64,000 nucleotides of DNA. Origin: Thermococcus bergensis (GTDB lineage: Archaea > Methanobacteriota_B > Thermococci > Thermococcales > Thermococcaceae). The position numbers and the translations under genes are program-made. A model generated the notes under the pieces. It was given only the letters and a program-made list of their open reading frames with translations, ran no database searches and was not told the DNA's origin. The stretch covers positions 1 through 64,000 of the forward strand of contig NZ_JABFNK010000004.1 in the NCBI RefSeq assembly GCF_020386975.1, written 5' to 3'. This document shows positions 1 to 13,336 of the stretch, one piece after another (within the stretch, counting starts at the first letter, position 1; each line of letters begins with the position of its first letter).

Positions 1-144
1 CAAGCCTCTGAGCTATTTTGGAGTTCTCGGGATCAAGGATTATAACGAGGTCGAACCATTCGTCACTTAGGTCCCTGCTCCGCAAACGGGGCATCTTTCT
101 TCGCTGGTTATGTAGTGGCAGTGTCTGCAGGCCTTTTCGCTCAT
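1..144 (-). pseudogene. rpoE2: RNA polymerase subunit E'' / Spt4 homologue, partial and frameshifted
   Basis: The minus strand starts with MSEKACRHCHYITSE and a CxxC..CPVC zinc ribbon typical of archaeal RpoE''/Spt4, the small partner of Spt5 in transcription elongation. The ATG (142-144) overlaps the TGA of rpoE' as ATGA, so the two are translationally coupled. After CPVCG the frame hits TAA near 71. One added base there restores SRDLSDEWFDLVIILDP up to the window edge. The gene is about 60 residues in relatives, so its end lies outside the window. Spt4 is highly conserved, so I infer a one-base sequence error rather than a true loss, but the sequence as given is broken. Confidence 0.8.
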
Positions 145-711
145 TCTCCCTCACCACTCTCGGCCTTTCTCTTTTCTTTTTGTATCCACTCAAACTTGCC
201 CAGCCCTGGCTGTCTCATGGTAAGGCCTATCTTGTTCTCCCTGATTATCTTGCTCTTTTCACTGACGGCTATTATCCTAGCCCTCACAGCATCACCAAGC
301 TTCAGGATGTAGCCCTTCTCCTTTCCAACAAATTGGGCGTTTTTTCTCGTCAAAGACAACGTAATCATCCATAAGCTGGGAGATGTGAACCAGACCATCC
401 ATTGGGCCAATTCTTATGAAAGCACCGTATGGGACAACGTCGATAACCTCACCCTCAACAACCTCGTGCATCTCGGGCTTCCACACAAGTACGTCAAAGA
501 CTGCCTCGTGATAGGTGGCTCCGTCCCCAGGGATTATTACTCCGTCACTAATTTCATGAACATCAAGAATTGCCAGAATGACGCCTTCATCTTTATCGTA
601 AATTCCTTCATAAGCCTCTCGCAGAACAATCTTAGCAGCTTCTTTTGGATCCATTGTAAACATTCTCGGGGGGATTCTCACAACGTCCTTGACTCGAATA
701 AGCTTGTACAT
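141..711 (-). pseudogene. rpoE1: RNA polymerase subunit E' (Rpo7/RpoE1), one-base frameshift
   Basis: Starts MYKLIRVKDVVRIPPRMF and contains an S1 RNA-binding domain (GEVIDVVPYGAFIRIGPMDG, about residues 83-102). This is the Rpo7 subunit that forms the RNA polymerase stalk with Rpo4. The frame breaks after VVFDEKK (around 345) at a run of six A on the coding strand (340-345). Reading five A restores NAQFVGKEKGYILKLGD, then RENKIGLTMRQPGLGKFEW to the stop at 141. The product would be about 190 aa, the family's usual length. It sits 31 bp downstream of ppa and overlaps rpoE''. An essential subunit with a homopolymer indel suggests a sequencing error. Confidence 0.85.
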
Positions 712-742
712 TCTCTTACCTCCAAAATTTTAAAAGAGAAGA

Positions 743-1273
743 TCACTTCTTGAATTTCTCCTTGTAGAGCTCTATTGCCCTGAGGATTTCCTGCTTTGCC
801 CTCTCTGCGTTTTCCCAGCCCTCTACAATGATCTCCTTTCCTTGGAGCTCCTTGTAGCGCTTGAAGAAGTGTGCTATCTCATCAAGGAAAGCCTTTGGAA
901 CATCATCTATGTCCTTCCAGTCGTTGAAGTAGGGATCCTCAACTGGTACTGCTAGTACCTTGTAGTCCTTGTCTCCGCTGTCTACCATCTTGAAGAGGCC
1001 TATTGGTCTCGCCTCAATGAGAACTCCCGGGTAAGTTGGTTCCCTCATGATGACCATGATGTCAAATGGGTCGTCGTCATCGTACCATGTTTGTGGAATG
1101 ATTCCGTAGTCAACCGGGTAGTAGAATGGGCTGTAAAGGACTCTATCGAGCTTTATAAGGCCGGTCTTTTTGTCAAGCTCGTACTTGTTTCTGCTTCCCT
1201 TTGGGATTTCTATTAGGGCGTAAACAACTTCCGGTACTTCCGGTCCGGGCTCCAAATCGTGGAATGGATTCAT
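743..1273 (-). CDS. ppa: Inorganic pyrophosphatase, soluble family I
   Basis: 176 residues beginning [20 protein letters not shown]. The family I signature with clustered metal-binding aspartates ([11 protein letters not shown], about residues 65-75) is intact, as is the second acidic loop DSGDKDYK. The enzyme hydrolyses pyrophosphate released by biosynthesis, including sugar-nucleotide formation. An in-frame GTG nine bases upstream lies inside the GAGGTGATTGAG ribosome site, so the ATG at 1271-1273 is preferred. It is first in a minus-strand unit with rpoE' and rpoE''. Product length and sequence match Thermococcales homologues as I know them. Confidence 0.95.
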
Positions 1274-1305
1274 CTCAATCACCTCTTTGGTTTTCAGAAG
1301 ATTTA

Positions 1306-1313
1306 GTTATAAA
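1306..1313 (-). promoter_or_regulatory. TATA box of the ppa-rpoE operon
   Basis: On the minus strand GGTTAGG-TTTATAAC reads as a BRE/TATA pair about 37 bases before the ppa ATG, which fits an archaeal promoter with a leader of roughly 10 bases carrying GAGGTG. Confidence 0.6.
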
Positions 1314-1462
1314 CCTAACCCAAAAGTTAACTTCTGCTCTTAGCTCTTAAGGTTGGTTTTTAAAGTTGTCGCTTAATTCGTTGAAAGATTCTATTTGTAA
1401 AGTTTTTTTGTTTATCGTTACACTGTTTATCACGAAGTCAACACAAAGTTGGTACCCTACTA

Positions 1463-1473
1463 GTGGTAATCAA
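1463..1473 (+). promoter_or_regulatory. Operator-like repeat GTGGTAATCAA, site 1
   Basis: GTGGTAATCAA lies just upstream of the TATA box and recurs exactly at 1522-1532. With GTTGGTACC at 1448-1456 it forms an imperfect inverted repeat. The same arrangement is kept in the second block (3145-3155). Regulator binding is inferred only from the repetition and its placement. Confidence 0.35.
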
Positions 1474-1490
1474 CATTCTAAAGAAAAACC

Positions 1491-1498
1491 TTTTATAG
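1491..1498 (+). promoter_or_regulatory. TATA box of the small cassette
   Basis: AAAAACC-TTTTATAG lies about 37 bases before the ATG at 1532, the usual archaeal distance for a short leader. The GGTGG ribosome site sits at 1521-1525. Confidence 0.55.
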
Positions 1499-1521
1499 TA
1501 GTTTTTAAATTATAACTGCCG

Positions 1522-1532
1522 GTGGTAATCAA
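1522..1532 (+). promoter_or_regulatory. Operator-like repeat GTGGTAATCAA, site 2, over the ribosome site
   Basis: Second exact copy of the 11-mer, overlapping the ribosome site and first base of the start codon. In the duplicate block the corresponding position has drifted to GGTTGTAGCCAA, so this site is specific to the peptide gene. Confidence 0.35.
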
Positions 1533-1840
1533 TGTGGAGGAAAGCTTTAGCGTTGGGAATGGTGTTAATGGCTTTGGGAGTTGTTTTTGGAGGAGTAGTG
1601 GAAGATAGTAATGCTGGAATAATCTATGGAGCTTACAGATGGCACAAAACGGGAGATGGAAAGGAAGTCCTTTATGGACTAACAGCTGGCCTCTTAGGCG
1701 GTTCATTTGTAGCTGGAGGCCAAATGGAAATGGCAGGAATAAAAATTGCAACTGAAGGGATAGTTAGTGTTGCTCTTAGAGTTGGTGCAGAATCACTAGC
1801 AAGGTGGTGCCCTTATATTGCACTAGGAATAGCTCTTTAA
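1532..1840 (+). CDS. Small hydrophobic secreted peptide, bacteriocin/archaeocin-like (unproven)
   Basis: 102 residues that I do not recognise as a named family. The start MWRKALALGMVLMALGVVFGG looks like a signal or leader sequence, with a possible AxA-type cleavage near residue 28 (DSNA-GIIYGA). The remainder is rich in Gly/Ala with a long amphipathic or hydrophobic stretch (GLTAGLLGGSFVAGG, then VSVALRVGAESLARW) and a single Cys near the end. This composition resembles precursors of circular or pore-forming bacteriocins. A SpoIIM/DUF95 protein, a family regularly found in circular-bacteriocin loci, follows two genes later. The start is set by GGTGG and the TATA box at 1491. The function is inference; an ordinary small membrane protein is the alternative. 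Confidence 0.5.
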   Translation: MWRKALALGMVLMALGVVFGGVVEDSNAGIIYGAYRWHKTGDGKEVLYGLTAGLLGGSFVAGGQMEMAGIKIATEGIVSVALRVGAESLARWCPYIALGIAL

Positions 1841-1843
1841 TTC

Positions 1844-2389
1844 GTTGCAAACAAAACCAAGGAGGAACCCACAATGAATTTTTACATAATAATAGGGAAA
1901 TATAAATTGACGAGAAGAGATTTTGGACTAGGCATAGTTATTGGTATGCTTATCACTTTAATAATCCTCTTTTGTCAATTTGTTGGGCTTATAGACAAGC
2001 CACTAATCAGTTCGCCAGAGGACTTTCTAGTGTCTTTAATAGCATTTGCACTGTCTACGATAGTACTTGTTGGTATGCTTGAAAATATCCGACAAACAAA
2101 GAGTGAATTACAAAAAGTTACAAACAAAACCAAGGAGGAACCCGAAACAGGTTCCTACATAAAAATAGGGAAATATAAGGTGACAGGAATAGATCCTGGA
2201 CTAGGCATGGCTATTGGTATGTTTATCAGCGTAATAATCCTCTTTTGTCAATTTGTTGGGCTTATAGACAAGCCACTAATCAGTTCACTAAGGGACTTCC
2301 TAGTGTCTTCAATAGCATTTGCACTGCTTACGATAGTTATTCTTGAAATTACCCGAAAATTATCCGACAAACAAAAGATTGAATTACAA
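1844..2389 (+). repeat. 273-bp in-frame tandem duplication
   Basis: Two adjacent 273-bp units start at 1844 and 2117. Each opens with GTT-(G/A)-CAAACAAAACCAAGGAGGAA and contains the same stretch coding for LFCQFVGLIDKPLIS. In unit 1 the AAGGAGGAA is the ribosome site before ATG 1874. In unit 2 the same bases are translated as KTKEEP. 273 is a multiple of three, so the duplication made one fused gene. Confidence 0.9.
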
Positions 2390-2395
2390 AAATAG
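1874..2395 (+). CDS. Internally duplicated four-helix membrane protein, unknown function
   Basis: 173 residues in two homologous halves (about 1-86 and 92-173). Each half has a short GKYK start followed by two membrane helices (GIVIGMLITLIILFCQFVGL and FLVSLIAFALSTIVL in the first half). The halves are joined by a lysine/glutamate linker encoded by a former ribosome site. The linker and C-terminus (KLSDKQKIELQK) are charged. It lies 33 bp after the peptide gene and 27 bp before the SpoIIM gene, so co-transcription is likely. I do not recognise the family. In the bacteriocin-like reading it would suit an immunity or accessory role, but that is speculation. Confidence 0.7.
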   Translation: MNFYIIIGKYKLTRRDFGLGIVIGMLITLIILFCQFVGLIDKPLISSPEDFLVSLIAFALSTIVLVGMLENIRQTKSELQKVTNKTKEEPETGSYIKIGKYKVTGIDPGLGMAIGMFISVIILFCQFVGLIDKPLISSLRDFLVSSIAFALLTIVILEITRKLSDKQKIELQK

Positions 2396-2422
2396 GTTTA
2401 TCATTGCAAGGGAGGGCTAAAA

Positions 2423-2974
2423 TTGAAAGATAACACCAAACCTCTTTTACTTTCGTTCTTACTATTTTTTATTGGGCTTTTTCTTGGAGTAACTCTTTCA
2501 ATTCATTATGAAGTTCACGAAAATGTTAATATTGCCCCATTTTTAGAAAGAGAGTTAAATGAAGGAAAACTGAGTTTTTCTTATATCTTCAAGAACAATC
2601 TCAAGGTATCTCTTCTCCTTTCTTTTGGTGGTGCTTTGACATTTGGTGGGTTAACTTTCTTAAACCTTGTTTTTAATGGCATGAACTTAGGAGTATTGTT
2701 CTATGAGGCATTAGCTTCAAACGATATTGGAATATTCTTACTTCTCATCCTTCCTCATGGCATTTTCGAGATTCCAGGTTTAATTATAGCTGGGTCTGCA
2801 GGCTTTAAAATTCCCTACGAATTGTTAAAATTTGCCCTTGGTAAAAAAGAAGAAATAATTAGCGAAGAAGATGCTAAAGAGTTCTTCAAACTTGTGGTGA
2901 TATCGATAGTCCTAATACTCATTGCAGCCATAATAGAAAGCAAAATAACACTAAAACTGGCCGAAAAACTGTAA
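2423..2974 (+). CDS. SpoIIM/DUF95-family integral membrane protein
   Basis: 183 residues with about five membrane helices. The middle carries features of the stage II sporulation protein M/DUF95 family: SFGGALTFGGLTFLNLVFNG, then LLLILPHGIFEIPGLIIAG with the characteristic HG-xxE(I)P motif around residues 111-118. Archaeal members are common and their role is not settled. In bacteria a DUF95 protein is a standard component of circular-bacteriocin gene clusters, where it is needed for maturation or export. The TTG start follows a strong GGGAGGG site. It is last in the three-gene unit beginning at 1532. Confidence 0.8.
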   Translation: MKDNTKPLLLSFLLFFIGLFLGVTLSIHYEVHENVNIAPFLERELNEGKLSFSYIFKNNLKVSLLLSFGGALTFGGLTFLNLVFNGMNLGVLFYEALASNDIGIFLLLILPHGIFEIPGLIIAGSAGFKIPYELLKFALGKKEEIISEEDAKEFFKLVVISIVLILIAAIIESKITLKLAEKL

Positions 2975-3037
2975 TAATCACGCAATAGAAGGATAGCAGT
3001 GAGATAACCGATTCAAAAATTTGTATCTGTTTTTTTA

Positions 3038-3216
3038 GTTTTTAAAATAGTCACTTAATTTGTTGAAAGATTCTATTTGTAAAGTTTTTCTGTTCATCAT
3101 TGTATTGCTTATCACAAAGCCAACACAAAGTTGGTACTCTACCAGTGGTAATCAACATTTTAAAGAAAAACCTTTTATTGTAGTTTTCAAATTATAACTG
3201 TTGGTTGTAGCCAACG
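3038..3216 (+). repeat. Direct repeat, copy 2 (promoter block before the micro-ORFs)
   Basis: Counterpart of 1356-1531, with TATA-like CCTTTTATTG at 3171-3180 and the GTGGTAATCAA element at 3145-3155. An IS982-type element inserted at its 3' edge now separates it from the micro-ORFs at 4175 and 4324. Joining the two flanks gives CCAACGTGAGGG followed by GGGGGAATAAAATG. Confidence 0.8.
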
Positions 3217-3221
3217 TGAGG

Positions 3222-4153
3222 ACCCTAGTTCCCATTAGATCGTTAGGGTTATAAGTACTTAAGTTTTTTGGTTGATTGGTGGTTGTATTGAGTTTTCAGA
3301 GGAAAATCCTGATCATAAAATCCGAAATCTACCCGATAATCAGCAAACACTACCCGAAAAACACTCACAGGGAAATAATCAGCCTCTACGACCTGATAAC
3401 CTTCGCAATACTAGCACACTTGCACTTTAACGGAGTTTACAAGCACGCTTACAGAGTCCTAATCGAAGAAATGAAACTGTTCCCCAAAATCAGGTACAAC
3501 AAACTAACAGAACGCTTGAACAGGCACGAAAAACTCCTACTCCTAGCACAGGAAGAATTATTCAAAAAACACGCCAGAGAATACGTTAGAATACTGGACT
3601 CAAAGCCCATTCAGACCAAGGAGTTGGCCAGAAAAAACAGGAAGGATAAGGAGGGTTCTTCAGAAGTCATCTCTGAAAAGCCCGCAGTTGGGTTTGTTCC
3701 CTCTAAAAAAAGTTTTACTATGGGTACAAGCTGACCTGTTACTCTGATGGAAATTTGCTGGCTTTACTGTCTGTTGATCCGGCGAATAAGCATGATGTGA
3801 GTGTTGTCCGGGAAAAGTTCTGGGTGATTGTTGAGGAGTTTTCCGGCTGTTTTCTGTTTTTGGATAAGGGGTATGTTAGCAGGGAACTCGAGGAGGAGTT
3901 TTTGAGGTTTGGCGTTGTTTACACGCCAGTAAAGCGGGGGAATCAGATTAGTAATCTGGAGGAGAAGAAGTTTTACAAGTACTTGTCTGACTTTCGCAGG
4001 AGGATTGAGACTTTGTTTTCGAAGTTTTCTGAGTTTCTTCTGAGGCCGAGCAGGAGTGTTAGTTTGAGGGGGTTAGCTGTCAGGATTTTAGGGGCGATTC
4101 TGGCCGTGAATCTGGACAGATTATACAACTTCACAGGTGGTGGGAACTAGGGT
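3222..4153 (+). mobile_element. IS982-type insertion sequence, copy A
   Basis: 932 bp with inverted ends ACCCTAGTTCCCA and TGGGAACTAGGGT. Flanks share only TGAGG (3217-3221 and 4154-4158), shorter than the 7-8 bp duplications of the other copies, so this copy may be older or its flank altered. The left end resembles that of copy F (GTTAGGGTTATAAGTACTTAAG) rather than copies B-E. It separates the duplicated promoter block from the micro-ORFs. Confidence 0.9.
3288..4150 (+). CDS. IS982-type transposase, two frames joined at an A7 run (copy A)
   Basis: Frame 1 (to 3734) ends VPSKKSFTMGTS. Frame 2 supplies YYGYKLTCYSDGNLLALLSVDPANKHD and LDKGYVSRELEEEF. They join by a -1 shift at AAAAAAAG (A7 at 3705-3711), giving about 287 residues. 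DDE-type acidic residues are visible in RILDSKPIQT and FLFLDKGY, with a late glutamate in the RRRIETLFSKFSEF region, matching the IS982 layout. Unlike the other copies its start is TTG in place of ATG. Without slippage only a non-catalytic N-terminal half is made. Confidence 0.8.
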
Positions 4154-4174
4154 TGAGGGTCCTGGGGGAATAAA

Positions 4175-4276
4175 ATGACAAAGGATAAAGATAGACCATT
4201 GCAAGATGATTGGTTCATAGATGCAATAACGATTCTGCTATTTGCATTTGGTCTACTAATTGTCCTATTGTGGTAG
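4175..4276 (+). CDS. 33-aa micro-protein with one membrane helix, paralogue 1
   Basis: MTKDKDRPLQDDW, then ITILLFAFGLLIVLLW and a stop: a charged N-terminus followed by a single membrane helix. A GGGGG ribosome site lies eight bases upstream. The next micro-ORF has the same start and helix (MTKDKDKPLRDD, ITILLIAFTLLIAL), and such paired conservation supports a real coding sequence. It was probably expressed from the promoter block at 3038-3216 before the IS landed between them. Function unknown; a small immunity-type or regulatory membrane peptide is possible. Confidence 0.6.
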   Translation: MTKDKDRPLQDDWFIDAITILLFAFGLLIVLLW

Positions 4277-4323
4277 TTGTTATAGTACTATAGTTCCGAA
4301 TGACATCTTGGAGGGAAAATAAA

Positions 4324-4443
4324 ATGACAAAGGACAAAGATAAACCATTGCGGGATGATTGTGACAAAGAGGAAATTGACTGGATAACAATTCTGCTAAT
4401 TGCATTTACTCTACTAATTGCCTTAAGTACCTTTTACTGCTAG
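4324..4443 (+). CDS. 39-aa micro-protein with one membrane helix, paralogue 2
   Basis: Paralogue of the preceding micro-ORF: MTKDKDKPLRDD, an acidic insert CDKEEIDW, then ITILLIAFTLLIALSTFYC. A GGAGGG site precedes the ATG by eight bases. The pair is separated by 47 bp and probably co-transcribed. The charged N-terminus is conserved while the linker differs, as expected for selected coding sequence. No named family recognised. Confidence 0.6.
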   Translation: MTKDKDKPLRDDCDKEEIDWITILLIAFTLLIALSTFYC

Positions 4444-4557
4444 CTGCACTAGTAAATTACCATGGTGAGCTCTGAACGTTCCATTTATTTCATTCCTCTA
4501 CTTTTGTTTTCCTTTTTGGTTTAATTCTTGAGCTATTATTAGTATAAGGTAGATTCA

Positions 4558-5511
4558 CTACTCTTTGCCCAATAACTCCCTAACAGTTTTTTCCACGGCT
4601 TGGTAACTATTCATCTTTGGCTTCCAGCCCTTTGCTTTGGCCTTCTCAATGCTAAGAAGCATGATCTTAACGTCTCCCTTCCAGCCCCTTCCCCCATCGA
4701 CACCGCCGGTAAAGTAGAACTCAGGACTTAGGCCCATCTCCCTACTTACTATCTCTGCTATCTCCTTTACAGTTATCCAGTCCTCGTTGCCTATGTTGTA
4801 AACGTCATAGATCTTGGCCTCCTTGAGGAATTCGTTGAAGAGATATACCATTGCATCAACCGTATCACTGACGTGGAGGTAGCTCTTTCTCTGCGTCCCA
4901 TCCCCCAGAATCTCCAGCCTTTCTGGGTTCTTCTTTAGTTTGTTTATGAAATCATAAATTACACCATGGTTTGATCTCTTGCCGATGATGTTGGCCAACC
5001 TGAAGGTTATGGCTTTCATGTCAAAGGTGTGCGCATAACCAGAAATCAAAGCTTCGGCCGCTAACTTTGCTCCACCATAAACGCTTATCGGCTCTAGAGG
5101 GCCATAATCTTCTGGAGTCGGGAGTTTTTGAGCTTCTCCATAAACGGTTGAAGATGACGTGAATGCAAGGATTTTAACTCCTTCCTTTCTCATGGCTTCG
5201 AGGAGGTTATAAGTTATGAGGACGTTAGTCTCATAGAGGAGCTCGGGGCTTTGGGCGCCGATCCTTACCTCGGGATTTGCAGCAAGATGAAAAACGGCCT
5301 CTACCTCTTTTACTGCTTTTTCACAAGCTTCTCCCCTTCTCATGTCTCCTCGAATAAATTCAAAGCGTTCATGATCAATCCACCTTTTGAGATTTTCCAA
5401 ATTTCCTGCACTTAAATCATCGAGAACTCTAACTTCATGGCCCTCTTCCATAAGTCTATCAACAAGATGGGAGCCTATGAATCCTGCACCGCCAGTAACC
5501 AAAATTTTCAT
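4558..5511 (-). CDS. NAD-dependent nucleotide-sugar epimerase/dehydratase (GalE-like SDR)
   Basis: 317 residues of the extended short-chain dehydrogenase fold. It has a Rossmann motif TGGAGFIGSH (residues 6-15), a TSSSTVYG substrate loop (about 118-125) and a catalytic Tyr145-Lys149 in SVYGGAK. Such enzymes interconvert UDP-glucose/galactose or their N-acetyl or uronic derivatives; the exact substrate cannot be read here. It is transcribed divergently from a sugar-nucleotidyltransferase gene, with a GGTGGT ribosome site before the ATG. It opens the glycan island and probably supplies a hexose donor. Confidence 0.85.
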   Translation of the reverse strand: MKILVTGGAGFIGSHLVDRLMEEGHEVRVLDDLSAGNLENLKRWIDHERFEFIRGDMRRGEACEKAVKEVEAVFHLAANPEVRIGAQSPELLYETNVLITYNLLEAMRKEGVKILAFTSSSTVYGEAQKLPTPEDYGPLEPISVYGGAKLAAEALISGYAHTFDMKAITFRLANIIGKRSNHGVIYDFINKLKKNPERLEILGDGTQRKSYLHVSDTVDAMVYLFNEFLKEAKIYDVYNIGNEDWITVKEIAEIVSREMGLSPEFYFTGGVDGGRGWKGDVKIMLLSIEKAKAKGWKPKMNSYQAVEKTVRELLGKE

Positions 5512-5542
5512 TGCTAACCACCAACTTAATTATTACAAAGGA

Positions 5543-5552
5543 TTTATATATG
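5543..5552. promoter_or_regulatory. Shared divergent TATA region
   Basis: TTTATATATG lies in the 79-bp gap between the epimerase and nucleotidyltransferase genes. It reads as a TATA box on both strands and sits about 35-45 bases from each start codon. Confidence 0.5.
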
Positions 5553-5590
5553 TTTTTAGAGTAATTTTAACACTGCTTGGAGGGAGAGAG

Positions 5591-6586
5591 ATGAAAGTTC
5601 TCATAATGGCCGGTGGTTATGCTACTCGTTTGTGGCCTATAACAAAGGAAAAGCCCAAACCCCTGCTGCCAGTGGGAGACAAGTATATAATCGATTACAT
5701 TCTCGAAAAGGTTAAGGAGCTAGATTTAGAGGTTTATGTATCCACCAACAAGTTCTTTGAGAAATACTTCAAGGAGTGGGCCGAGAAGAATGGTGTGGAG
5801 CTCATTGTTGAGGACACCCTAAGTGAAGAGGAAAAACTTGGAACCATCGGGGCGATTAAATACGCTATATCGAAACTTGGGATTGATGATTACCTTATAG
5901 TTGCTGGTGACAACCTGTTTTCCTTCTCGCTTAAGGAGTTTCTAAGGCACTATAATGGGAAGCCGTTGATAGCGGTTTACGACGTCGGTGATTTCGAGCT
6001 GGCGAAAAGGTATGGTGTTGTTGTGGTTGAAGGTGATAGGGTTATTGACTTTCAGGAAAAACCCCTGCAGCCGAAATCAACACTCGTGAGCACGGGTGTG
6101 TATGCCCTCCCTAAGGAAGTAGTTGCGAAAGTCGATGAATACCTTGCAGAGGGCAACAGGGACTCACCGGGCTACTTCATAGAGTGGCTTCTCAAGAAGG
6201 GTGTTGAGATTCAGGCCTATAAATTCGATGATTACTGGTATGATATTGGTTCGGCCGATAGCTATTTGGAAGCTATGAAAACATTACTTAAGGAGAGCCA
6301 AATTGAAGAGGTTCAAATAAGCCCCTACTCCAAGATAATATCCCCTGTGGTCATAAAGAAGGGCACAAAAATCCTCGGGAGGTCGATAATTGGGCCATAT
6401 GCCTATATTGGAGAGAACTGCCTGATAGAGAATTCCGATGTTAGCGATTCTATAATCTTTGGAGACACAATCATCAGGGGTTCCACTATATGGCGTTCCA
6501 TAATAGATGAGAAGTGCGAGATAAGGAATCTCGAGCTTAAGAAAAGCCTCGTTGGTGGTCATGCAAAGATCCAGAGGGGGGATTAG
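5591..6586 (+). CDS. Sugar-phosphate nucleotidyltransferase with C-terminal left-handed beta-helix
   Basis: 331 residues. The N-terminal nucleotidyltransferase domain has MAGGYATRLWPITKEKPKPL (residues 6-25) and metal-binding AGDNLF. The C-terminal third holds hexapeptide-like repeats (IGPYAYIGENCLIEN). It activates a sugar-1-phosphate with NTP, like glucose-1-phosphate uridylyl/thymidylyltransferases or mannose-1-phosphate guanylyltransferases. The GYATRL variant of GxGTRL is unusual. The ATG at 5591 has GGAGGGAGAG directly upstream, so a longer upstream reading frame is not used. Donor specificity is undetermined. Confidence 0.85.
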   Translation: MKVLIMAGGYATRLWPITKEKPKPLLPVGDKYIIDYILEKVKELDLEVYVSTNKFFEKYFKEWAEKNGVELIVEDTLSEEEKLGTIGAIKYAISKLGIDDYLIVAGDNLFSFSLKEFLRHYNGKPLIAVYDVGDFELAKRYGVVVVEGDRVIDFQEKPLQPKSTLVSTGVYALPKEVVAKVDEYLAEGNRDSPGYFIEWLLKKGVEIQAYKFDDYWYDIGSADSYLEAMKTLLKESQIEEVQISPYSKIISPVVIKKGTKILGRSIIGPYAYIGENCLIENSDVSDSIIFGDTIIRGSTIWRSIIDEKCEIRNLELKKSLVGGHAKIQRGD

Positions 6587-7321
6587 GTTTTTGTGGGACT
6601 CCATGCATATTTTACAAGATAACCAAATTTCTTTGCCTTTATAACTTCCCAAAGTTCATTACGTAGAGAACTTATCAAGTCAAGAATTAATCATAGCTTC
6701 ATCAGGGCGGATCTGAGTATCGGTTATATCCTATGTCTCTTATAATTAGGTATTATTACGGAAACTTTCGTGGAGAGTATGTCTTTTGTACACCTCCAAA
6801 ATTCTGGTAGCTATATTTTCCCATGTGAACTGCTCAGCATACTTTCTTATCTTTTCTCTATCCCATTCTTTCTCTAAGGCAATTAAAATTTTTTCTGCCA
6901 ACTCTTTTGGATTTGCTGGCTCGCAAAGTAACCCATAGTCTTCAGAGATTATTATCTCGGGCACACCACCAACCTTAGTCCCAACAAAAGGCAAACCAAC
7001 ACCCAAAGCTTCAAACATAACCGTAGGATTCCCCTCACTCAAACTCGACAAAACAAACAAATCAGCAGCATTCATCCAATACTTAAGTTGTTCGTCCGGG
7101 ATGGAACCGAGCAATTTGACATATTCTTGAAGACCAAGTTTATTGATTTGCTTTTGAAGTTTGTCCCTGAGAGGGCCATTACCCCCTATATAACAGGCAA
7201 CATCGTTTCTCTCCCTGACAACTAATGACATTGCATCAATGAGATACTGAAAACCTTTCCTCTCGATTAGATTGCCGAGACCAAACACCATCTTATTGCT
7301 AGAAGGAAATCTTAAGATACC

Positions 7322-8184
7322 CTAGTTCCCACCACCTGTGAAGTTGTATAATCTGTCCAGATTCACGGCCAGAATCGCCCCTAAAATCCTGACAGCTAAC
7401 CCCCTCAAACTAACACTCCTGCTCGGCCTCAGAAGAAACTCAGAAAACTTCGAAAACAAAGTCTCAATCCTCCTGCGAAAGTCAGACAAGTACTTGTAAA
7501 ACTTCTTCTCCTCCAGATTACTAACCTGATTCTCCCGCTTCACCGGCGTGTAAACAACGCCAAACTTCAGGAATTCCTCCTGAAGTTCTCTACTAACGTA
7601 ACCCTTATCCAAAAACAGAAAACAGCCAGAAAACTCCTCAACAATCACCCAGAACTTTTCCCTGACAACACTCACATCATGCTTATTCGCCGGATCAACG
7701 GACAGCAAAGCCAGCAAATTTCCATCAGAGTAACAGGTCAGCTTGTACCCATAGTAAAACTTTTTTTAGAGGGAACAAACCCAACTGCGGGCTTTTCAGA
7801 GATGACTTCTGAAGAACCCTCCTTATCCTTCCTGTTTTTTCTGGCCAACTCCTTGGTCTGAATGGGCTTTGAGTCCAGTATTCTAACGTATTCTCTGGCG
7901 TGTTTTTTGAATAATTCTTCCTGCGCTAGGAGCAGGAGTTTTTCGTGCCTGTTCAAGCGTTCTGTTAGTTTGTTGTACCTGATTTTGGGGAACAGCTTCA
8001 TTTCTTCGATTAGGACTCTGTAAGCGTGCTTGTAAACTCCGTTAAAGTGCAAGTGTGCTAGTATTGCGAAGGTTATTAGGTCGTAGAGGCTGATTATTTC
8101 CCTGTGAGTGTTTTTCGGGTAGTGTTTGCTGATTATCGGATAGATTTCGGATTTTATGATCAGGATTTCCTGCTGAAAGTTCAT
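7322..8184 (-). CDS. IS982-type transposase (copy B)
   Basis: 287 aa when read through the A7 run (7761-7767 as T7 on the plus strand). The start is ATG after GGTGGTTGTT. Translation matches copy D in both halves (RELQEEFLKF, KRENQVSN). The transposase gene is intact because the IS6 element lies between the transposase start and the IS end, in the promoter-side terminus, and may block its expression. Confidence 0.8.
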
Positions 8185-8242
8185 AACAACCACCAATCAA
8201 CCAAAAGACTTAAGTGCTTATAACTCTAACGATCTAATGGGA

Positions 8243-9021
8243 GACACTGTCAGGATAAGCAGTGGGACGTTAGGTTTAAGTTTCTGATACCTCTTCAGAA
8301 AAGGGGAGAGAAATGAGGACTGAAACCATTATTTACTTACTGGTTTCAGTCTTAAAAACCTTTCGCCGGAACAAAATCCCAGCAAAAAAGAAAACCAGGG
8401 CAATAAACCTGTACCTGCACGGACTAAGTTACAGACAGGTAGGAACAATCCTCGAAATCAGCCACACAACAGTCTGGGAAACAGTCCAAAAATTCGCGAA
8501 AGCAGTTTACCAGCCGAAAATCCTCGCAGTCAAAAAACAGAGAAACTTCATCGCAATTGACGAGACAGTGATAAAGATCAACGGCCAGAAGAGATTTCTC
8601 TGGGCTGCAATCGACGTTGAGAGCAAAGAAATCCTAGCAGTATGGATTACAAGCGTTAGGAACTGGTGGATTGCCAGGGACTTCATTCTAGTTGTTTTGA
8701 AATCCTGCGAGGGACAGCCAATTTTCCTGGTTGACAAAGGGCCGTGGTATAAATCAGCGTTTAAATCTCTCGGGCTGGATTATCTGCATGTGACTTTCGG
8801 GCCGAGGAACTGTGTTGAGCGCTGGTTTAGGACTGTTAAAGAGAGAACAAAGCGTTTCTGGAATAACTTCAGGGCTAGAGACTGGAGGAGGGTTCACAGG
8901 TTTGTTTTTCTGTTTTCATTCTGGTATAATTTTGTTAGAATTCATTCTCGGTTTGGTGGACCGCCTGGTGATGTGACTGAATGGCTTCAGGAGGTGATAC
9001 CCCAGTTATCCTGACAGTATC
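8243..9021 (+). mobile_element. IS6-type insertion sequence, copy 1 (inside IS982 copy B)
   Basis: 779 bp with inverted ends GA(C/T)ACTGTCAGGATAA, flanked by the 8-bp duplication TAATGGGA (8235-8242, 9022-9029), the duplication size usual for IS6. Confidence 0.95.
8313..9014 (+). CDS. IS6-family DDE transposase (copy 1)
   Basis: 233 residues. An N-terminal helix-turn-helix (LHGLSYRQVGTILEISHTTV, about residues 40-59) is followed by a DDE catalytic core: the first Asp in FIAIDETVIKING, the second in FLVDKGPWYKSA, and Glu in CVERWFRTVKERTKRF. The W-FRTVK context after the Glu is typical of IS6. The frame is full and identical to the copy at 56945, so it is probably active. IS6 transposition is replicative and yields cointegrates. 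Confidence 0.92.
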   Translation: MRTETIIYLLVSVLKTFRRNKIPAKKKTRAINLYLHGLSYRQVGTILEISHTTVWETVQKFAKAVYQPKILAVKKQRNFIAIDETVIKINGQKRFLWAAIDVESKEILAVWITSVRNWWIARDFILVVLKSCEGQPIFLVDKGPWYKSAFKSLGLDYLHVTFGPRNCVERWFRTVKERTKRFWNNFRARDWRRVHRFVFLFSFWYNFVRIHSRFGGPPGDVTEWLQEVIPQLS

Positions 9022-9633
9022 TAATGGGAACTAGGGTTTAAGATTGTTCTTGCTTCTTCCTTATTCATAAATGGCAACCTTTTTGGATCAAAACCATTGG
9101 GGACGTAGAACACATTATGATTGAACTCCTTAAGGAGAGGAATGTCTTTTTGATTAACCCTTATCAACGCATCAGCATTTTTCCATGTCCAATATATTTT
9201 TTCATTTTCTGACTTATATTCTTTCAAAAACCAATCCCTATTTTCGTGTATGGTTATTATAGACGGTAATCCATATTCTTTTCCCAACTTTACAGCGGCG
9301 TATCCACTTGGCCAAGTAAAATGAGCATGAATTAAATCGAACTCTGGCCTCTCACGTTTGATGACTTTCAAGGTAGCTTTAAAGAAGTTGTCTCCGAGTC
9401 TCATTCTAAAAAACGATACTGGAGCATGAAGAAATCTTGGATAATACACTTTGACATTCTCGTAAGAGTAATCCTTCAAATTTCGTTGATAGCCCATGGG
9501 TTGGGGAGATATAACTGTTATCTCCTCAAAATATTTCCGTAATTCATCAACTTGCCCTTTAACGAAAGAGCCCCCATAAAACGAGCCATCTTTGTTAGGA
9601 AACAAATTTGTTAAAATAAGAAGTTTCTTGGCC

Positions 9634-10728
9634 TTAAACATGGTTTTTCACCACCTTGGAATATACACTCAAAATAATTTGCTCGACAAAATTCCAAGTA
9701 TACTTCTTTAAGTATATTTTATGCCCCTTATGCCCTGATTTTTTTAAATATTTTGGATTCAGTAACAAAAAGGATAACATCTTTTCGACGTCTTTCTCAT
9801 CGTATTTCACGGCCCATCCTATTTTCATGGTTTCAACGAGCTCAGCTAATGCTGTTCCATGAGATACGAGTATAGGGGTTTTAACACTAGCTGCTTCGAA
9901 AATTTTGTTAGGTATGCTCAGCCTATTGTTTTCAAATTGAGGATCATACATTGCAAATGTTATATCTGCCTTAGAGAGTTCCTTCAATACCTCTTTATGT
10001 GGGATAAACCCAAGATAATCATGATTTAATTGCTTTTTCAATTCTTGTTCAATTTTCTCCCAACCTTTCCCGGCCACTCTATACTTGATCCCCAATTTTT
10101 TGGATATCTTTGCCATCTCAAGGAGGAATCTATGCCCGGAGATAACTCCTCCATAAAAAACAGTAAACATTTTTGATCTGGACTCTTTCTCATATGGAAT
10201 TGGCGGTACAGTGTTTAAAACAGTGTAAACGTTTTTATTTCTTCTAAATATTATCTCACTTACCCTATGACTGGCTGTTAATATAACATCCGCATTTTTT
10301 TGGAAAAATGCATCTATTACTCCTACAACATTTGAAGAAAAAATTGGAGAAGCCTCTTTGACTAAGCTTTCATACAAATCATGTACATCATAAACCCACT
10401 TGGTGCCTCTGAGCTTTTTAGAAATAAGGCCTAGCACAGCAGTATCAAAATCATGAGTATGGATCACATCAGGTTTTAGCATGGAAATAACCCTAAATGC
10501 ATTAAAATAAAATAAAGGAAGCTTTACAGCCATTGATGGACCGTACTTGGCTCTAGGACCAACGCGAATAACCTTAAATCCTTCGACGTTTTCTTCTTTA
10601 GGATATTTTCCTTCCCTATCCCAAGCAACTATAATAACCTCATGGCCGGCTTTAGTTAGGCTCTTAGCTTCTTTGTATACTCTCGGATCTGGTTTGAATG
10701 GGTTTGTAACGACCATTACTATCCTCAT
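9634..10728 (-). CDS. GT4-family glycosyltransferase
   Basis: 364 residues, GT-B fold. The N-terminus MRIVMVVTNPFKPDPRVYKE with VIHTHDFDTAVLG binds acceptor; the C-terminal half has a diverged donor site (SIPNKIFEAASVKTPILVSH). The ATG at 10726-10728 is chosen over an upstream in-frame start because GGTGAT lies just before it. The 3' end overlaps the next glycosyltransferase by 8 bp and the upstream GT2 gene ends 4 bp away, so the three form one unit. The sugar transferred cannot be predicted. Confidence 0.85.
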   Translation of the reverse strand: MRIVMVVTNPFKPDPRVYKEAKSLTKAGHEVIIVAWDREGKYPKEENVEGFKVIRVGPRAKYGPSMAVKLPLFYFNAFRVISMLKPDVIHTHDFDTAVLGLISKKLRGTKWVYDVHDLYESLVKEASPIFSSNVVGVIDAFFQKNADVILTASHRVSEIIFRRNKNVYTVLNTVPPIPYEKESRSKMFTVFYGGVISGHRFLLEMAKISKKLGIKYRVAGKGWEKIEQELKKQLNHDYLGFIPHKEVLKELSKADITFAMYDPQFENNRLSIPNKIFEAASVKTPILVSHGTALAELVETMKIGWAVKYDEKDVEKMLSFLLLNPKYLKKSGHKGHKIYLKKYTWNFVEQIILSVYSKVVKNHV

Positions 10729-10732
10729 TCTA

Positions 10733-11707
10733 TCACCTAAAAGCCCTCTTCCCAAACAATAATCCTGCTACAAATCCAAGGCTTATTAAGTTATGGAAGA
10801 TCCACATTACCGGAGGAAGGGCAAGAGCATCAGCGTTTTTAGTTCTTCGCCATAGCCTGAAACCTTCGCCAAGGAGCAAAAGCCAGTAAAGAACAAATGG
10901 CCATGCCAAGGCTTTCCACAAAGGGAGCAATATCTCAAATCCCAAAAAACCTAGAGGGAACAGCCATAGTGGAGAAAAGTAGCCTTTTCGTATTGCCATA
11001 CTTTTAACTGCGCCATAGTTAAAACTCTGCTTTAAGAATCCTTTCCACGTTGAACGAGCAAAGTAATAGCTCACAATACCAGGATTAAAAAATAGTTTGT
11101 AGCCTCTTTTGTTTATCCTAAGATTGAATTCGAAATCATTCCCTATTATCATATCTTCGTCAAAGCCTCCGATTTCTTCAGCGATTTTCTTATCGTAGAG
11201 TGCAAAAGCAACTGTTTTGGCAAAATGTGGGTTTTCTTCATACCAAAAAGTACTTGCACCAGAAAGAGGTGAGGAGTATATTAAGGCGACAAACTTGGCC
11301 AACCGAGTCTCATAGAGTTTGATTATTTTACCTCCGACACCGGCAAGTTTCGGCTCTTTTACCTTAATTTCAAAAAATGTCTCAACACTTTTTCTTAAAA
11401 AATCCCTTTCGGGGTAAGCGTGAGCACCAAAGATAATGAAGAAGTCTCCTCTCGCCTCTCGGATCCCCATGTTAAAGGCGTAAACCTGTCTCCTCTTCGG
11501 ATTTTTTCGGTATTTCACAAGTTCTGGATATTTACGCTCAAAATCTTTCACAATCTCCGCGGTTTTGTCTGTGCTCATTCCATCGTACACGAGAATTTCA
11601 TAACGATCCTTTGGATAGTCCTGATTAACCCATTCCTCAAGACATTTGCCAATGTATTTTTCCTCGTTGTAAGCAGGGATTATAACAGAGACAAATGGAA
11701 GTTCCAT
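10733..11707 (-). CDS. GT2-family glycosyltransferase with C-terminal membrane helices
   Basis: 324 residues. The GT-A domain has VSVIIPAYNEEKYIGKCLEE, a YDGMSTDKT donor loop and GGFDEDMIIGNDFEFNLR in place of the usual ED-x-D box. Three hydrophobic segments at the C-terminus (LWLFPLGFLGFEILLPLW onward) anchor it to the membrane, as in polyprenyl-linked glycan enzymes. The ATG (11705-11707) follows GGGTGA, better than the upstream GTG. First gene of the three-gene glycosyltransferase unit. Confidence 0.85.
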   Translation of the reverse strand: MELPFVSVIIPAYNEEKYIGKCLEEWVNQDYPKDRYEILVYDGMSTDKTAEIVKDFERKYPELVKYRKNPKRRQVYAFNMGIREARGDFFIIFGAHAYPERDFLRKSVETFFEIKVKEPKLAGVGGKIIKLYETRLAKFVALIYSSPLSGASTFWYEENPHFAKTVAFALYDKKIAEEIGGFDEDMIIGNDFEFNLRINKRGYKLFFNPGIVSYYFARSTWKGFLKQSFNYGAVKSMAIRKGYFSPLWLFPLGFLGFEILLPLWKALAWPFVLYWLLLLGEGFRLWRRTKNADALALPPVMWIFHNLISLGFVAGLLFGKRAFR

Positions 11708-11742
11708 TTTTTCACCCGATACTTTTTTAATCACTGCCTTAC

Positions 11743-11754
11743 TTTTTATAAATT
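11743..11754 (-). promoter_or_regulatory. TATA box of the glycosyltransferase unit
   Basis: Minus-strand AATTTATAAAAAG lies about 40 bases before the GT2 start. On the plus strand it reads TTTTTATAAATT before the acetyltransferase remnant. Confidence 0.5.
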
Positions 11755-11764
11755 GGTGTCTTCA

Positions 11765-11898
11765 ATGACTCAAAAGTATTTTGTTCATCCTTTGGCTGTT
11801 GTTGAAGAGGATGTTGAAATCGGAGAGGGAACCAGAATATCACATCGACATGGGAGTTGAAATAGGCAACAACGTAAAAATCCAGAACGGAGTCTCCC
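11765..11898 (+). pseudogene. Remnant of a WbpD-type acetyltransferase gene
   Basis: Repeats the first part of the acetyltransferase gene at 15778: GTCTTCAATG(A/G)CTCAAAAGTA and onward are almost identical. About 65-70 bp are missing after GAGAGGGAACC(A/C)GAATAT, and homology resumes at CATCGAC(A/G)TGGGAGTTG and ends near 11898. The frame stops soon after the deletion. This is a recombination scar in the same orientation as the full gene 4 kb downstream. Confidence 0.85.
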
Positions 11899-12082
11899 TC
11901 ACAAGAGAAATTGCTGTTTGTCGGGAGAAAAACCCTTGAAGGTTAATGCTTTAATTTCAGATACCTTGGTGAGTATCTTTATGAACGGCATTGTTTGGAC
12001 AGTGATTTTTAATCTTTGGAGGATATTACCTAAATTTTAGAAAGAGGATTAGATTTTTATACTCTCCTTCTATTAGGTTTTG

Positions 12083-13336
12083 ATGACTATGAAGGAGAGC
12101 TTAAAATTAAGGCTGATCAAAAACGCAGGCTGGCTTTTCAGTGCTGAGGTCGTTTCAAAACTCTTGGGTTATGGTGTGATAGTTATTTTAAGCAGAACGC
12201 TCGGTCCGGAAGGGCTGGGGCAGTACTCGTTCATATTTTATTATGTAAGCCTCCTTGGAATATTCGCAGATTTTGGTGTTAACTATTATCTTATGCGAGA
12301 AGTTGCTAGAGATAAGAAAAAGCTCAACGAGTTACTTCCGGACGTTCTCGGCTTTAAAATAATTCTGGCGATTTTTAATTTCTTGGTTATTGTTGGGATA
12401 ACTTTCTTCCTCCCGAAGCCTGATTGGATGAAGGCCCTTATTATTTTGGTTGGAGCTGAGGCGATGCTTACGTGGATTTCATGGGTTTTTGTGAATATTA
12501 CATATGCTCACGAGGTAACTAAATATGAAGCCATTGCGAGAGCTGTTGAACGGTTTTGGGCATTTTTTGTTGGAGGAATGGTTCTCTACGCATACAAATC
12601 ACTCTCGCCTTTTATCATAGCACTTTTAGTGGGCCACACCATAAGAGAACTCCTAAGGGTAAAATGGGGGGCCCAGTTTGTTGGCGAACTTAAAATCCGT
12701 TTCAAGCCCGAGATTTGGAAAAGCCTTCTGAAGAAATCCTACCCATTCTGGCTAATTGGATTATTTACCTTAATCTACTATCGCACAGACATGGTAATGC
12801 TAAGCCTTCTTAGGGGAGACTACGAGACGGGAATTTATAGAGCTGCATATACACTGATAGAAGTCTCCCTCTTTATTCCGGGTATTGTCGTCTCAACTGC
12901 GATGCCATCAATGGCGAGACTTTGGAAGGAGGATAGGGAAACTCTCAATGTCTTATTCAAAAAGAGTTTTCAGATGCTCGTTCTTCTGGGAGTTGGAGGT
13001 TTAACTGGCTATTACATTTTTGCTAGACTTGGAATTTTGATAGTTTTTGGTCAAGAATTTCTTCCAAGTGTCCCCATTTTGAGAATTTTGGCGTTTTCAG
13101 TTCCCTCCATGTTCCTGAATTCCCTTTTTGGGAGTTATATGAACGCCACTGGGAGGGAACTTACTTTTACAAAGATAACTGGCTTCACAGCACTTTTTAA
13201 CGTTGTTCTTAATTATTTCCTAATACTGCAGTATGGACCAGAAGGAGCCGCGATAGCAACTGTAGTAAGTCAAGGGATAGTGAGTGTTTTAAGTTATTGT
13301 AACTTGCACAACTCTTGCCGAAAAAATGAATACTAA
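12083..13336 (+). CDS. Wzx/RfbX-type polysaccharide flippase
   Basis: 417 residues with about 12 hydrophobic segments and the N-terminal signature of the polysaccharide-synthesis MATE-like superfamily (NAGWLFSAEVVSKLLGYGVI, then SRTLGPEGLGQYSF). These proteins flip lipid-linked oligosaccharides across the membrane. The last helix runs into a short tail CNLHNSCRKNEY, shorter than many relatives, so the C-terminus may be clipped. A TATA-like ATTTTTATAC precedes the gene by about 30 bases; the ribosome site is weak. It lies between two copies of the acetyltransferase 5' end. Confidence 0.85.
   Translation: MTMKESLKLRLIKNAGWLFSAEVVSKLLGYGVIVILSRTLGPEGLGQYSFIFYYVSLLGIFADFGVNYYLMREVARDKKKLNELLPDVLGFKIILAIFNFLVIVGITFFLPKPDWMKALIILVGAEAMLTWISWVFVNITYAHEVTKYEAIARAVERFWAFFVGGMVLYAYKSLSPFIIALLVGHTIRELLRVKWGAQFVGELKIRFKPEIWKSLLKKSYPFWLIGLFTLIYYRTDMVMLSLLRGDYETGIYRAAYTLIEVSLFIPGIVVSTAMPSMARLWKEDRETLNVLFKKSFQMLVLLGVGGLTGYYIFARLGILIVFGQEFLPSVPILRILAFSVPSMFLNSLFGSYMNATGRELTFTKITGFTALFNVVLNYFLILQYGPEGAAIATVVSQGIVSVLSYCNLHNSCRKNEY

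Follow-up and report, generated by a model that had tools for sequence, protein, structure and literature searches.

The window analysed here is a 64,000-nucleotide stretch of the Thermococcus bergensis genome, and close to its beginning three genes follow one another on the forward strand. They are preceded by a presumed promoter/leader region (1353-1541), which extends into the first codons of the first gene and of which an 86% identical copy lies at 3035-3222. The first gene (1532-1840) encodes a precursor-like peptide of 102 amino acids, with a conserved leader, MWRKALALGMVLMALGVVFGG, and a variable hydrophobic core that includes YRWHKTGD. The second (1874-2395), which we call the double gene, encodes a protein of 173 amino acids with two homologous halves and four hydrophobic segments, a putative fused immunity protein, and the third (2423-2974) encodes a SpoIIM/DUF95 membrane protein (PF01944, E 7e-32). 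Nothing in Rfam reached the gathering threshold in 1200-4600.

The double gene is built on a tandem repeat. Tandem Repeats Finder reports a single array for the whole 64-kb window, at 1844-2392, with a period of 273, 84% matches and a score of 797, and a repeat comparison aligns 1844-2072 with 2117-2345 at 85% without gaps. Unit 1 (1844-2116) consists of 30 nt of upstream sequence, including the presumed ribosome-binding site of the double gene, AAGGAGGAA (1859-1867), and then, from the ATG at 1874, of 81 codons without a stop; unit 2 (2117-2392) is translated throughout, its copied upstream region included. Because 273 nt are 91 codons, one 173-aa protein results from a single ORF that spans both units, and its halves are 66% identical at the protein level. 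The copy of AAGGAGGAA in unit 2 (2132-2140) is in frame and codes for KEE within the inter-half linker VTNKTKEEP. The initial annotation had described just this arrangement, namely a tandem duplication of a 273-bp unit that carries the ribosome site, the second site read as linker and a single gene for two homologous halves, and in all of this it is borne out.

It had also supposed that the stop codon of the first unit must have been lost, which the junctions speak against. Unit 1 begins 3 nt past the stop of the precursor gene and ends on the sense codon AAA; unit 2 ends at the same codon, and TAG follows. Loss of a stop is not required, because the final codon of the duplicated block is a sense codon, the one directly before the stop; judging from these edges, a breakpoint just before the stop would have fused the two copies at once. 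At the exact tandem join, no shared base that would indicate microhomology was seen. Might the second ribosome site, copied intact as it is, still be functional and yield a short protein of one unit in addition to the double one? Such internal initiation, raised in the initial annotation, is highly improbable, because the unit 2 equivalent of the unit 1 start codon (2147-2149) now reads ACA and, whichever frame is considered, a GTG 39 nt downstream of the site is the nearest ATG, GTG or TTG, none lying within 38 nt. Around the start codon, ACAATGAATTTT of unit 1 (1871-1882) differs from unit 2 at 8 of 12 positions.

Two contigs of the assembly include this locus. Positions 1-6299 of the window coincide at 99.3% with the final 6.3 kb of contig C3 (L007 741-7034), and the 45 differing columns comprise 2 substitutions and 43 gaps, many of them in homopolymers; what had been entertained as a paralogue, a second copy on C3 at 96%, was rejected as being this overlapping contig end. 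Both versions carry both tandem units, and within 1844-2392 they show zero substitutions and one indel. This indel, at 2351, changes how the final ~15 residues of unit 2 are read, so that the C-terminal tail of that unit is uncertain, the doubling itself not being in doubt. Some of the indels, such as the one at 1809, break genes on C3 that are intact in the window, and the two contigs are not independent evidence, since they may share reads. An assembly artefact as the source of the tandem units would fit with a locus assembled at two contig ends and with the many indels between the versions; however, the units differ at about 16% of their bases and the contigs agree over the repeat except for that one indel, and we find an artefact hardly credible. 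An RPB7-like gene (292-711) is shortened in the window and longer on C3.

Relatives of the unit are few. In a search set of one genome per species, the 173-aa query has matches in 4 of 101 genomes, its own counted; a unit profile of five rows matches 4 of the 94 genomes of the order and the same four among 115 of the phylum, and a wider profile of 16 rows reaches 10 of the 94, eight of these ten having supplied rows to the model. The initial annotation had proposed looking for single-unit homologues in other Thermococcales, and these are found: one in a congener (G006), where it sits at the same locus (L009 3841-4092), flanked by precursor and SpoIIM, and one in another genus (G015, L010 4133-4519). 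A single-unit paralogue also occurs in the T. bergensis genome itself, on contig C5 (L008 4063-4308). Since single units exist in these three places, the doubling is the derived state, and the pattern that had been named as the mark of an ancient duplication, two diverged halves in every homologue, is not the one seen. The double gene of the window has so far been seen in the T. bergensis genome alone. Two further relatives sit in decayed operons in which SpoIIM is broken: in G002 (L011 3774-4336) the precursor is matched only at the end of its core and the start of the unit runs into the remains of SpoIIM, and in G001 (L067) a unit-family ORF is present and the precursor profile has no match. 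In G006, SpoIIM (L009 4102-4670) is split into two overlapping ORFs, by a frameshift or a sequencing error. A contig search returned a single locus, JdFR-02, whose contig is apparently C3 of G015; no relative was found among viral contigs, and the double protein had no match over the cut-off in Pfam or NCBIfam, the best being DUF6773 with 19 bits of the 27 needed.

How old is the duplication? Between the halves, over codons 11-76, NG86 gives dN 0.176 and dS 0.175, and YN00 gives 0.205 and 0.115; over all 91 codons the NG86 values are 0.230 and 0.185. Bootstrapping of the NG86 values yields a median dN/dS of 1.0 (0.41-2.8) and a dS of 0.07-0.35. Against G006, NG86 dS is 0.54 for ipp, 1.27 for the precursor and 3.7 for unit 2, and is saturated, with no value, for unit 1, galE and the SpoIIM part. 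Because the half-to-half dS of 0.175 is below the 0.54 of ipp, the duplication looks younger than the split from G006, unless gene conversion kept the halves alike. The event was called recent in the initial annotation, and it is so relative to that split; as an absolute term the word sits less well with 16-19% divergence and a dN/dS of about 1. The latter ratio is compatible with relaxed constraint. Polarised with three outgroup units, the 31 amino-acid differences (among them those in the uncertain tail and at two positions that precede the start codon of unit 1) divide into 17 derived in unit 2, 6 derived in unit 1 and 8 ambiguous. The longest identical run between the halves is 55 nt within the 229-nt ungapped part, above what shuffles give (p 0.0013), and the central stretch IILFCQFVGLIDKPLISS is identical in both. 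Gene conversion could have produced this run, but protein constraint may suffice to account for it, since the single units, too, have this stretch among their best conserved parts.

The protein itself is predicted to be a membrane protein. The double form has four hydrophobic segments, two per unit, and a pI of 9.2, and each unit taken singly has a pI of about 9. Counts of K+R against D+E are 4:1 in the N-terminal tail, 8:6 in the linker, 5:2 in the C-terminal tail, and 1:3 and 2:2 in the two short loops. In the AlphaFold model of the double protein (mean pLDDT 74, pTM 0.49, 14 sequences), a linker of low order connects two pairs of helices, and we infer from the model and the charges that each unit is probably a helical hairpin whose two termini lie on the cytoplasmic side. 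Because both ends of the hairpin would be cytoplasmic, an end-to-end fusion would leave both halves correctly oriented.

A precursor profile built from three peptides matches 18 of the 94 genomes, and in this family the first ~22 residues are strongly conserved and the core is variable. The AlphaFold model of the window precursor (pLDDT 51) is too poor to use. PF01944 matches are found in 90 of the 94 genomes, so SpoIIM is not diagnostic alone; at least two such matches occur in 18 of 18 genomes with the precursor profile versus 2 of 76 others (G001 and G045), in a count that may include fragments and in which one of the three matches of G000 is the doubly assembled locus. Sixteen related stretches from 15 genomes (L051-L066), chosen by precursor matches, show, among the loci listed, precursors, then small membrane genes, then SpoIIM, several accompanied by a divergent ABC permease and ATPase; an ABC permease and an ATPase are also encoded next to the C5 paralogue. 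One stretch (L054, in G004, 3640-12502) holds five ORFs with a common leader and different cores, one of them short, each with a SpoIIM-matching ORF at most 1.2 kb downstream.

The protein in the slot between precursor and SpoIIM varies with the core class of the precursor, and SpoIIM and the leader are constant, among the loci listed. We drew up, after inspection of the loci, a class of precursors with a YxWxKT core and, counting precursors with SpoIIM within 1.2 kb, asked how often the unit family lies between the two. As scripted, it does so for 6 of 7 YxWxKT-class precursors versus 2 of 21 others (p 4.8e-4). Two corrections were then made: L052 is positive when read from an inner ATG, because the ORF start first used lay too far upstream, and L053 2824 was removed, being a leader fragment of a gene already counted. 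With these, the unit family is found for 7 of 7 YxWxKT-class precursors versus 1 of 20 of the remaining precursors that SpoIIM follows, among which a few, e.g. L054 6904 and L059 7470, are short or broken; the Fisher p of 9e-6 is nominal only, because the class is post hoc and shared ancestry is uncorrected. Against an immunity role, 7 of 14 unit-family ORFs, L052 being corrected, have no YxWxKT-class precursor before them (two each in L008, L059 and L060, and one in L053).

The gene order recalls that of circular bacteriocin clusters such as those of AS-48, leucocyclicin Q and circularin A, in which, as here, a leadered precursor, a small cationic two-helix protein and SpoIIM/DUF95 stand in a row; the ABC permease and ATPase of some related Thermococcales loci add to the likeness. 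In an excerpt of PMC13289728, SpoIIM is class-defining for circular bacteriocins, and models of these peptides are present in both Pfam and NCBIfam; a passage of PMC8534725 gives the minimum cluster as precursor, DUF95 and ATP-binding genes, the ATP-binding (ABC) protein being required. As described in part of PMC6131525, the immunity proteins are small, cationic and hydrophobic, and PMC7132975 gives them two to three membrane helices. Set against this description, the window has the PF01944 gene at 2423-2974 and, per unit, a small, cationic, hydrophobic protein with two hydrophobic segments; it differs in that two units, and thus four segments, are joined per chain, in that neither the double protein nor the precursor matches a family over the cut-off (for the precursor, none in Pfam or NCBIfam at E up to 1, hence none of the circular-bacteriocin models), in its archaeal host and in that no ABC gene was seen by eye beside the operon in the ORF list of window positions 1-8000. 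Nine readings of related precursors likewise had no match over the cut-off, and no circular-bacteriocin family was listed for them. The window operon is not classed as a circular bacteriocin cluster, though it is built like one. In the open-licence literature we found no paper linking a circular bacteriocin with SpoIIM in Thermococcales, none linking one with archaea and Pyrococcus, and none linking an archaeocin with SpoIIM. The islands in Thermococcales may already have been described by Makarova et al. 2019 (mBio), where an earlier mention of them is most to be expected. That paper is cited in PMC8416519, and a passage of PMC6393860 calls duplicated genes typical of conflict systems, with regard to one archaeal bacteriocin-like island.

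What, then, might the double protein do? We lean, with rather modest confidence, towards the reading that the middle gene of a peptide operon was doubled in frame and fused, and that its product is a putative immunity protein against the operon's own peptide; from the association with core class and the features of the protein, the unit would be a cognate immunity protein. On this proposal, the three genes, for precursor, two-helix protein and SpoIIM, form an operon for a secreted antimicrobial-type peptide, and the middle one was duplicated in tandem and in frame. As the sequence shows, the copied block reaches from just past the precursor stop to the final sense codon of the small gene, so that copy 1 lacks a stop and the copied ribosome site is now part of the linker. 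The putative immunity protein would protect a producing cell against the peptide that it makes itself, and the doubling might provide a higher dose or join two binding sites in one chain. After the duplication, the halves diverged under little net constraint, unit 2 more so, with IILFCQFVGLIDKPLISS remaining identical.

The same duplication and fusion could have befallen a gene of another kind, and the double protein could, instead of conferring immunity, work with SpoIIM to export or mature the peptide. Its position between precursor and SpoIIM would suit such a role, as would the occurrence of other small proteins in the slot beside other precursors, among the loci listed, and the AS-48 cluster, as described in part of PMC7132975, has a further putative membrane protein among the six genes that production requires. 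However, a slot protein that tracks the core class beside a constant leader and SpoIIM better suits a core-specific partner, and unit-family members are also found away from a YxWxKT-class precursor, so that we consider an export partner rather unlikely, if the most serious of the alternatives. It is more improbable that the locus is decaying and that the doubling is a neutral by-product without present function. The dN/dS near 1 between the halves, the insertion element that adjoins the operon, the decayed relative in G002 and the split SpoIIM reading in G006 all lend themselves to decay, but in the window all three reading frames, those of the precursor, the double gene and SpoIIM, are open, and the central 55 nt are unchanged between the halves. 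The locus draws attention to antimicrobial-type islands of Thermococcales that are linked to SpoIIM and contain a candidate family of immunity proteins. It is also a polarised example of an in-frame tandem duplication that turned a ribosome site into coding sequence.

The window may not hold the only fusion of this kind. When 37 hydrophobic ORFs from 20 sources, each 90-220 aa long and on the same strand as SpoIIM, were compared half with half, two had clearly matching halves: the window ORF (BLASTP of first half against second, E 7.5e-32) and an ORF in G029 (L060 5254-5616; 40% identity over 48 aa, E 9e-7), the next having E 0.006. The G029 protein belongs to the same unit family, its first half scoring 17.2 bits against a profile built without L060 (1000 shuffles gave at most 10.2), and like the window protein it has two halves per chain; its halves, however, are more diverged, and no YxWxKT-class precursor was found in the L060 stretch. 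Because alignment gaps place it with another subgroup, it would be a separate, older fusion. Doubling without fusion is also seen, with 13 unfused paralogue pairs of small genes inside one stretch in 6 of 20 sources. A speculative and quite unlikely extension is that units of this archaeal peptide family have repeatedly been doubled and fused, in the window and separately in G029, into four-helix putative immunity proteins with two recognition faces, the ribosome site of the window locus being recast as linker and its unit 2 diverging towards a second peptide. Were this true, the window locus would be a snapshot of broadened immunity arising.

At three of the loci listed (L061 2692-3240, L051 2653-3196 and L064 4165-4707), the C-terminus of the small membrane protein beside the precursor resembles, by eye, the precursor core (KYHEYMELYRQALEKEDEKKARIYKSYAEEYS versus KYHHYMGLYRQALLNGDITKAEYYKSLADEYKS), a likeness that could possibly be mimicry by an immunity partner.

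Downstream of SpoIIM, also on the forward strand, the second copy of the operon upstream region (3035-3222) ends at an insertion element with approximate bounds 3223-4153, which is 96% identical to copies at 7319-8242 and on C5, and we take this upstream copy to be the start of a lost second operon. Beyond the element lie ORFs of 33 aa (4175-4276), with one hydrophobic stretch, and 39 aa (4324-4443), which form a second tandem pair, 78% alike in DNA and unfused. Positions 3035-4443 of the window are apparently the remains of that second operon.
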